From SAR202 cluster bacterium (GTDB taxonomy: Bacteria; Chloroflexota; Dehalococcoidia; UBA6926; VFHL01), in assembly GCA_009392005.1 (NCBI GenBank), contig VFHL01000002.1:62001-126000 (forward strand): 64,000 nt of DNA. The letters are read 5' to 3'. The translations under genes were made by a program, and so were the position numbers. Within the stretch, counting starts at the first letter, position 1. The number at the start of each line of letters is the position of its first letter. The notes beneath the pieces are model-generated. The model worked only from the letters and a program-made list of their open reading frames with translations. It searched no databases and was not told the origin of the DNA. This document shows, piece by piece, positions 58,630-60,174 of the stretch.

Positions 58630-59478
58630 CTAAAGAATTAGCGGAGTTTCCTCTCTATTCGCCCATTCGCCCATTGACCCATCATAAACACGTACTCTGC
58701 TATAGCCGAGCAGTGTCAAAATGAAAGCACCGTGCGCCGCACGGATTCCAGCTTGTCAATATGTAATGATTTGTTTATCAGGTGTTACACCATTTCTCTC
58801 GAACAATTCGTGGAGTTCACTCGCAGGTTTGATTATTCGATATCTATCTTGTTGAATGAAATTGAGCCATTCCAAATGAACAGCACCAGGAATCCGACCC
58901 GCTCTGTTATTACCACGAGTAGTGTCGCTTCCTTCCCATTCTCCATCTGACCGGACATCAAGAAAAATCGTGTCCGATTTCCCTACCTGCTCTAAAGCGT
59001 AATCTAATATACAAACGTTATCTGGATTATTTTCGGGAACAAACGTTTTCGCTACTATATCTGTCGGATCAATAGAAACTGCGCGCTGCTCATCAAACCA
59101 TTTTGCCCACCCACCATTCAATATTTTCACCTCTGTGTGACCATAATGATTTAACACCCACCACATGCGGGCAGCATACAATCCTCCCGAATGATCATAT
59201 GCGACCACAACTGTATCCTTATCAATCCCCATTCCGCTCATTAATGCTGCAATATAATCAGGGTCCGCCACAAGAGGATTGTTGAAACGATCATCCAAGT
59301 AATTAGGACCTTTAAGGTAATGATGCTCTGAAATTCCCACTGCATTTTTTATATGGGCGCGAACAAAATGTTCGTACTGATCACAGTCAATGATCCGGAG
59401 ATTCGCATCTTCTAAATGAGCCTCAAGCCAATCGGTTTCAACCAATAAATCTGGACGCGCATAACCGCCATGTGTCAT
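58630..59478 (-). CDS. Two-domain rhodanese sulfurtransferase with in-frame TGA at the catalytic Cys (selenoprotein candidate)
   Basis: Conventional translation stops after 240 residues at TGA 58758-58756. Readthrough gives 282 residues. The TGA sits exactly where two-domain thiosulfate/mercaptopyruvate sulfurtransferases have the active-site Cys (ITY-C-Q-x-G-x-R): here ITY-[TGA]-QAGIRAAHGAF. The following 41 codons (LLGYSRVRVYDGSMGEW, ending NREETPLIL, TAG at 58630) are a normal rhodanese end with no frameshift. Domain 1 (about 10-125) is the usual inactive half (VAYDHSGGLYAARMWWVL); domain 2 holds DVRSDGEW and GRIPGAVHLEW. AAGGGGTG precedes the ATG. A SECIS-like hairpin follows the TGA. Selenocysteine best explains this; a nonsense mutation is the alternative. 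Confidence 0.82.
58725..58754 (-). promoter_or_regulatory. SECIS-like hairpin just downstream of the in-frame TGA
   Basis: In the mRNA, CCGUGC-GGC-GCACGG (58744-58730) forms a perfect 6-bp upper stem with a GGC loop. A lower AAGC/GCUU stem (58754-58751 with 58728-58725) closes it across a 6x1 internal loop. Seventeen bases separate UGA from the apical loop, and the loop starts with G. These values agree with the bacterial SECIS rules as I remember them. Confidence 0.65.
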
Positions 59479-59577: not shown

Positions 59578-60174
59578 ATGACGATCGCTGAACTACTGGT
59601 CCACGACACAGAGCTAGATCAATTTATTGAAGTTATGGATCATAGATTGCCATCTATTGATGCCGTAGAAGAAAAAATCACAGCACTTCACGAATCGTTT
59701 TATTTTTTGTTATCCAAGGATTTCATTCCACGAGAATACAAAAAAGACATCCCGGGAATCTTTGCGCAATACCTTTTATATAGGAATGCAGAACGAAACT
59801 TGTCACTAATGGCGATGGTCGTTCCACCTAAAATTTCAACACCAATCCATAATCATCTTGCATGGGGATTAGTTGGAGTCTACCAAGGAACACAACGTGA
59901 AATAGTATATGAAACGATTGGAGAACCTGACCTCGAACATAACCAAGCACAACTTAGAACTATATCTGAAAACATTCTCGAAATTGGTGATATTACAACG
60001 CTGGAGCCTCCACATAATGACATTCATATGATTGAAACAATATCTGAAGAGCCATCGATCTCTTTACACTTACTTGGAAATGATATCGGCTGCCAAGCAC
60101 GCCATGCTTTCGATCAAGAGTCTAATTCTGTTAGGCAATTTACGTCTGGATATGTTAATGCCGAATGCAATTGA
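59578..60174 (+). CDS. Cysteine dioxygenase-like cupin
   Basis: This 198-residue cupin has an iron site typical of thiol dioxygenases: H91 and H93 in TPIHNHLAWGLVGVYQG and a third His, probably H150, in NDIHMIET. The C-terminal ISLHLLGNDIGCQARHAF is also like the cysteine/3-mercaptopropionate dioxygenase group and its COG5553 relatives. Such enzymes oxidise a thiol to a sulfinate with O2. AGGAG precedes the ATG. It is divergent from the rhodanese gene across 99 bases, which suggests a common role in thiol or sulfur compound breakdown. The exact thiol is unknown. Confidence 0.78.
   Translation: MTIAELLVHDTELDQFIEVMDHRLPSIDAVEEKITALHESFYFLLSKDFIPREYKKDIPGIFAQYLLYRNAERNLSLMAMVVPPKISTPIHNHLAWGLVGVYQGTQREIVYETIGEPDLEHNQAQLRTISENILEIGDITTLEPPHNDIHMIETISEEPSISLHLLGNDIGCQARHAFDQESNSVRQFTSGYVNAECN

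Follow-up and report, generated by a model that had tools for sequence, protein, structure and literature searches.

A two-domain rhodanese with a predicted selenocysteine at its catalytic site in SAR202 and related Dehalococcoidia

Introduction

Few sulfur enzymes have been studied as thoroughly as rhodanese, which works well with cysteine. A gene on the minus strand of a SAR202 genome nevertheless has an in-frame TGA where a two-domain rhodanese carries its catalytic cysteine. It lies in the window, the 64,000-nucleotide stretch of DNA analyzed here. Does this TGA mark a damaged or truncated gene, or does it encode selenocysteine (Sec)? A preliminary description made from the letters of this DNA favored the latter.

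Enzymes of this kind are already known as predicted selenoproteins. A "rhodanese-related sulfurtransferase" of COG2897 was described in 2005 as a new selenoprotein family, on the basis of three Sargasso Sea sequences with a predicted SECIS (PMC1088965). Eight sequences of this selenoprotein were reported from the GOS data (PMC2398784), and reviews list it, lately as form 4 with the motif UxxG (PMC13188914). The preliminary description had mentioned rhodanese selenoproteins from marine metagenomes, correctly in light of the first two of these studies. Our literature search found no papers on rhodanese selenoproteins of SAR202 or Dehalococcoidia, and the library searched held no biochemistry of the rhodanese-related sulfurtransferase selenoprotein.

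Results

The reading frame and its TGA codon

The frame encodes 240 residues up to ...KQIITY, followed by TGA, QAGIRAAHGAFILTLLGYSRVRVYDGSMGEWANREETPLIL and TAG (Table 1). Translation thus agrees with the earlier reading of 41 intact codons between TGA and TAG; this tail runs QAGIRAAHGAF...ETPLIL. Residues Q242, G244, R246, G258, Y265, D266 and S268, all downstream of the UGA, are invariant, and conservation at the protein level extends over the 41 codons. A standard gene caller stops one residue short of the active site. Elsewhere in the window UGA is an ordinary stop, terminating 13 of 51 long ORFs, and a global reassignment of UGA was therefore ruled out.

Table 1. Positions of the features discussed, in the window or on contig 7 of the same genome
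Feature	Position	Strand	Details
Two-domain rhodanese (sulfurtransferase) gene	58630..59478	-	ATG start, TAG stop, 282 residues with predicted Sec at 241; from translation, Pfam and predicted fold
In-frame TGA, predicted selenocysteine codon, residue 241	58756..58758	-	Alignment to catalytic Cys of 1uar/3hwi; TGA column in relatives
Post-UGA C-terminal coding region, 41 codons	58633..58755	-	Rest of active-site loop, helix 245-256, strand 262-265, helix 268-272
Core of putative SECIS-type hairpin	58730..58744	-	6-bp stem CCGUGC/GCACGG, loop GGC
Extended fold from UGA, including lower stem round core hairpin	58714..58758	-	Minimum-energy fold
Second TGA rhodanese (L013 8555..7742)	contig 7, 103745-104548	-	44% identity to window protein
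selD (L021)	contig 7, 83770-84687	-	In-frame TGA before AGKLGP

The read-through protein is a two-domain rhodanese

The Pfam Rhodanese model (PF00581) matches two stretches of the read-through protein, with 129 bits against a cut-off of 22. An AlphaFold2 model of this protein has a pLDDT of 95.8, and its best matches among solved structures are the sulfurtransferases 1uar and 1e0c (TM 0.87-0.89). A profile of 42 relatives pairs residue 241 with the Cys in the catalytic loop of two known enzymes, Thermus rhodanese 1uar and M. tuberculosis CysA2 (3hwi). In the model this residue sits between strand 236-240 and helix 245-256, in the strand-helix active-site loop. The protein has the two rhodanese domains and the fold of the thiosulfate/mercaptopyruvate sulfurtransferases. 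It lacks their catalytic Cys, in place of which a predicted Sec codon stands in an otherwise intact loop, and it is therefore classed as a Sec variant and not as an ordinary Cys member. The resulting U-Q-A-G fits the UxxG motif of the PF00581 selenoprotein form 4. Neither the window protein nor its paralogue reached the threshold of any NCBIfam model. The 3-mercaptopyruvate sulfurtransferase equivalog NF008557 gave 121.6 bits, far under its curated cut-off of 250, and rhodanese_LYCAU gave 42 against 115.

Thermus 1uar, Azotobacter 1e0c and Mycobacterium CysA2, CysA3 and SseA resemble the window protein in fold (TM 0.83-0.89) and in the position of the active site, but these thiosulfate sulfurtransferases use Cys, and identity to them is about 28-34%. 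Cys relatives from the same class (L110, L112, L133 and others) are ~47-51% identical and share the CQGGIRAAH loop; they differ in having a TGC codon and in lacking the hairpin-forming codons described below.

Distribution of the TGA and Cys forms

A scan of GTDB genomes yielded 80 loci, mostly from Chloroflexi, SAR202 and Dehalococcoidia; four are titled Binatia or Deltaproteobacteria, and two come from Bacteroidota. With the window gene and its paralogue included, the aligned codon was typed in 86 genes. It is TGA in 78/86 and TGC or TGT in the other 8/86, a ratio that is not a prevalence because the scan used query peptides. The claim that the TGA falls exactly at the rhodanese catalytic Cys is borne out by this column, where the agreement goes far beyond chance, as it is by the alignment with Cys homologues. 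The tail following the TGA or Cys codon measures 40-48 codons in every one of the 86 genes. Four loci (L062, L069, L078 and L082) carry a tandem pair of TGA rhodaneses on a single strand.

A set of 294 genomes, drawn evenly from the same class, was searched for rhodanese and for SelA. Matches with one internal TGA occurred in at least 62 of the 294 genomes. The position of this TGA was checked in the source genome of the window and in seven others, and it was the catalytic codon in all. By hand count among the matches listed, every TGA-form genome that is at least 90% complete has SelA (42/42). In comparable genomes whose strongest matches include the Cys form alone, SelA is present in 17/25 and absent in 8/25 (Fisher p 1.7e-4 for 42/42 versus 17/25, with kinship ignored). 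Completeness is 71-81% in the four TGA genomes in which SelA is missing.

Sec machinery and a second copy in the source genome

The source genome (1.6 Mb, 13 contigs, 94.9% complete) has selA, selB, selC (tRNA-Sec) and selD, the set for which a search had been proposed. SelA was found with an E of 5e-140, SelB with 378 bits against a cut-off of 242 and SelD with 377 bits against 125. The tRNA-Sec scores 73.9 bits against a gathering score of 47, and ARAGORN calls it tRNA-SeC with anticodon tca (UCA). SelD has a single in-frame TGA just before AGKLGP, and because of this TGA it is probably itself a selenoprotein. This TGA occupies what we take to be the position of Cys17 of E. coli SelD.

A paralogue on contig 7 has its TGA at the same codon (EVLTY-TGA-QGGMRAAHA) and carries a hairpin as in the window gene, with a G-C replacing a C-G pair. 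SelB, SelD and this paralogue share one contig, about 19-39 kb apart.

A SECIS-type hairpin downstream of the TGA

One mark of a bacterial SECIS is a guanosine in its small apical loop (PMC1088965). The window gene has a hairpin just downstream of its UGA with a G in the small apical loop: the stem starts 11 nt past the UGA and the loop 17 nt past it, with G first. Taken alone, this hairpin is modest (z -1.11 versus dinucleotide shuffles; p 0.03 versus synonymous shuffles). An Rfam search around it gave no match, even at E up to 5, and the case for a SECIS therefore rests on comparison of relatives, which gives strong evidence.

When the 48 nt from the UGA were folded, the core stem-loop CCGUGC-GGC-GCACGG appeared in most Sec genes, while the lower stem varies among relatives. 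Synonymous z averages -1.25 in 75 Sec genes, against +0.37 in 8 Cys genes and -0.19 in windows taken upstream. Codon choice follows the same division. Inside the hairpin 147 of 150 Ala codons are GCG, versus 400 of 1427 elsewhere (upstream) in the same genes. Among genes encoding the peptide [IV]RAAH, the codons CGTGCGGCGCA[C/T] are used in 60/60 Sec and 0/21 Cys genes (p 7e-20), and all five inner pairs form in 60/60 and 0/21, respectively. These counts come from related sequences and not from independent events, and the Cys genes with the matched peptide are a direct control for protein constraint. Since the peptide is identical and only the Sec genes carry the hairpin codons, the comparison argues that RNA structure, not protein, is under selection in this region.

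Changes on both sides of the stem keep its pairing. Column pair 15:29 changes from C-G to G-C or A-U, and 19:25 from G-C to U-A; L063 and L065 show paired stem changes (CGUUC..GAACG). One subclade (L064, L066, L070-L073, L075-L077, L080 and L081) has His-Gly replaced by Asn-Ser in the active-site loop, and here the core stem is disrupted. About 8 nt further 3' these genes form another stem, GGCGAACA/UGUUCGUC, whose loop begins with G. The SECIS-type hairpin thus appears to have moved ~8 nt 3' along with the His-Gly to Asn-Ser change.

Gene surroundings

An Nmad3 gene (nucleotide modification associated domain, PF18754; 57847-58614, plus strand) is convergent with the rhodanese, their ends lying about 16 bases apart. 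A divergent gene (59578-60174, plus strand) encodes 198 residues that look cupin-like by eye and gave no significant Pfam match. Neither neighbor was found near other Sec rhodaneses or gives a functional clue, and for the second gene, given this and its missing Pfam match, no functional link is drawn. A cluster of luciferase-like monooxygenase neighbors was discarded as evidence, as it consists mostly of distant paralogues in different orientations. About 18 loci from other lineages (L027, L028, L032, L037, L044-L055, L058, L059 and L103) have an arylsulfotransferase-like gene (PF05935) closely behind the Sec rhodanese, in most cases no more than ~90 bases away. This neighbor is a lead toward organosulfur metabolism.

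Evolutionary history

We built a quick maximum-likelihood tree from 115 proteins (85 Sec, 30 Cys); it needs at least four changes between Sec and Cys. The Sec proteins of family f27 are the sister group of the f35 family's Cys clade, and SelA is kept in some f35 genomes and absent from others. This suits a change from Sec to Cys that preceded loss of the Sec machinery, with the direction inferred on an unrooted tree. L105 comes from a genome of the same order as the window and is identical in the tree to L030, a Chloroflexi sequence, and this sets the order within Chloroflexota. The Binatota/Deltaproteobacteria sequences nest inside the Chloroflexota Sec proteins, which suggests a probable gene transfer from Chloroflexota to Binatota.

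Discussion

An in-frame UGA that aligns with the Cys of homologues, with flanks conserved on both sides, is a criterion for a selenoprotein, and this is what the locus presents. We put the probability that the gene encodes a genuine selenoprotein, with Sec inserted at the catalytic site of a rhodanese-type enzyme, at about 0.94. The UGA would be decoded by SelB and Sec-tRNA(UCA), owing to the downstream hairpin, a reading that the comparison of relatives supports. As the fold and the intact CQxGxR loop suggest, the Sec selenolate would most likely attack sulfane sulfur in thiosulfate or a similar donor. An enzyme Se-S intermediate would form in the usual rhodanese anion pocket, and the sulfur would then be passed on to a thiol or a thioredoxin-like acceptor. 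It is reasonable to expect that selenium changes the chemistry through such a selenium-sulfur intermediate. That thiosulfate-type sulfur transfer is the main job of the enzyme we consider somewhat probable.

A lone premature stop usually points to a pseudogene or to a one-base sequencing or assembly error, but here either origin is scarcely conceivable. The same TGA recurs in the paralogue of the same genome and in scores of independently assembled genomes, which excludes a misread base. The relatives show this one TGA without random stops or frameshifts, their frame is intact to the end everywhere, and the TGA and the hairpin codons are conserved; the pseudogene that the preliminary description had asked to be checked is thereby refuted. 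The UGA might instead be a real stop, as it is for other long ORFs of the window, and leave a 240-residue product that functions alone. Such a product would lack the catalytic residue and would end before the final strand and helices of domain 2, and the protein-level conservation of the 41 codons beyond it makes this reading extremely unlikely. Decoding of the UGA mainly as cysteine, or as another near-cognate amino acid, would at least give a working site, since Cys is functional there in relatives. The hairpin codons are nonetheless specific to the TGA genes, and SelA is always kept with TGA forms in near-complete genomes, so that we judge this very unlikely.

A different question is what the predicted selenoprotein does. 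It might serve mainly as a selenium carrier or trap, delivering selenium to SelD, or as a peroxide-sensitive redox enzyme. Selenium transport by rhodanese is discussed in the literature (PMC9369223), and the shared contig of SelB, SelD and the paralogue also fits a carrier. Against this, thiosulfate sulfurtransferases have just this Sec/Cys site and C/U-Q-x-G-x-R loop, and the Cys form persists in genomes without detected SelA, where selenium delivery makes little sense. We therefore regard a main job other than sulfur transfer as unlikely.

The protein resembles the published COG2897/cd01449 selenoprotein (PMC1088965, PMC2398784; form 4 in PMC13188914) in its two domains, Sec in place of the catalytic Cys, UxxG motif and SECIS just downstream. 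Kinship with it (AACY01016424, MQG53192.1, MCY3690685.1) was judged by architecture, motif and site only. Forms 1, 2, 3 and 5 of PMC13188914, single-domain or other rhodanese selenoproteins, likewise have a rhodanese domain with Sec but are separate forms; forms 1, 3 and 5 have the other motifs UxxS, CxU and UxxxxU, respectively. The COG2897 selenoprotein was published from few environmental sequences, in a study whose selenoproteins were mostly sporadic. Here, by contrast, whole genomes show that a single bacterial class contains a large clade in which the Sec form dominates and paralogues occur. What is new is this scale and pattern: a large, long-conserved Sec clade in Chloroflexota (SAR202/Dehalococcoidia) with paralogy, a probable passage to Binatota, several switches between Sec and Cys, and a hairpin that appears to have moved in one subclade. 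More tentatively, Sec-rhodanese may have been ancestral and widespread in Dehalococcoidia/SAR202, with later conversion to Cys, as in f35, before loss of the machinery, and may serve a dedicated selenium-dependent organosulfur step; we hold this full scenario to be possible but rather doubtful.

Sec kept over long evolutionary spans beside close Cys sisters amounts to a natural experiment on what selenium gains in sulfur transfer. In this lineage, known from marine, lake, sponge and groundwater samples, gene calls for the Sec rhodanese would be truncated at the active site, and its sulfur metabolism is therefore probably under-annotated.
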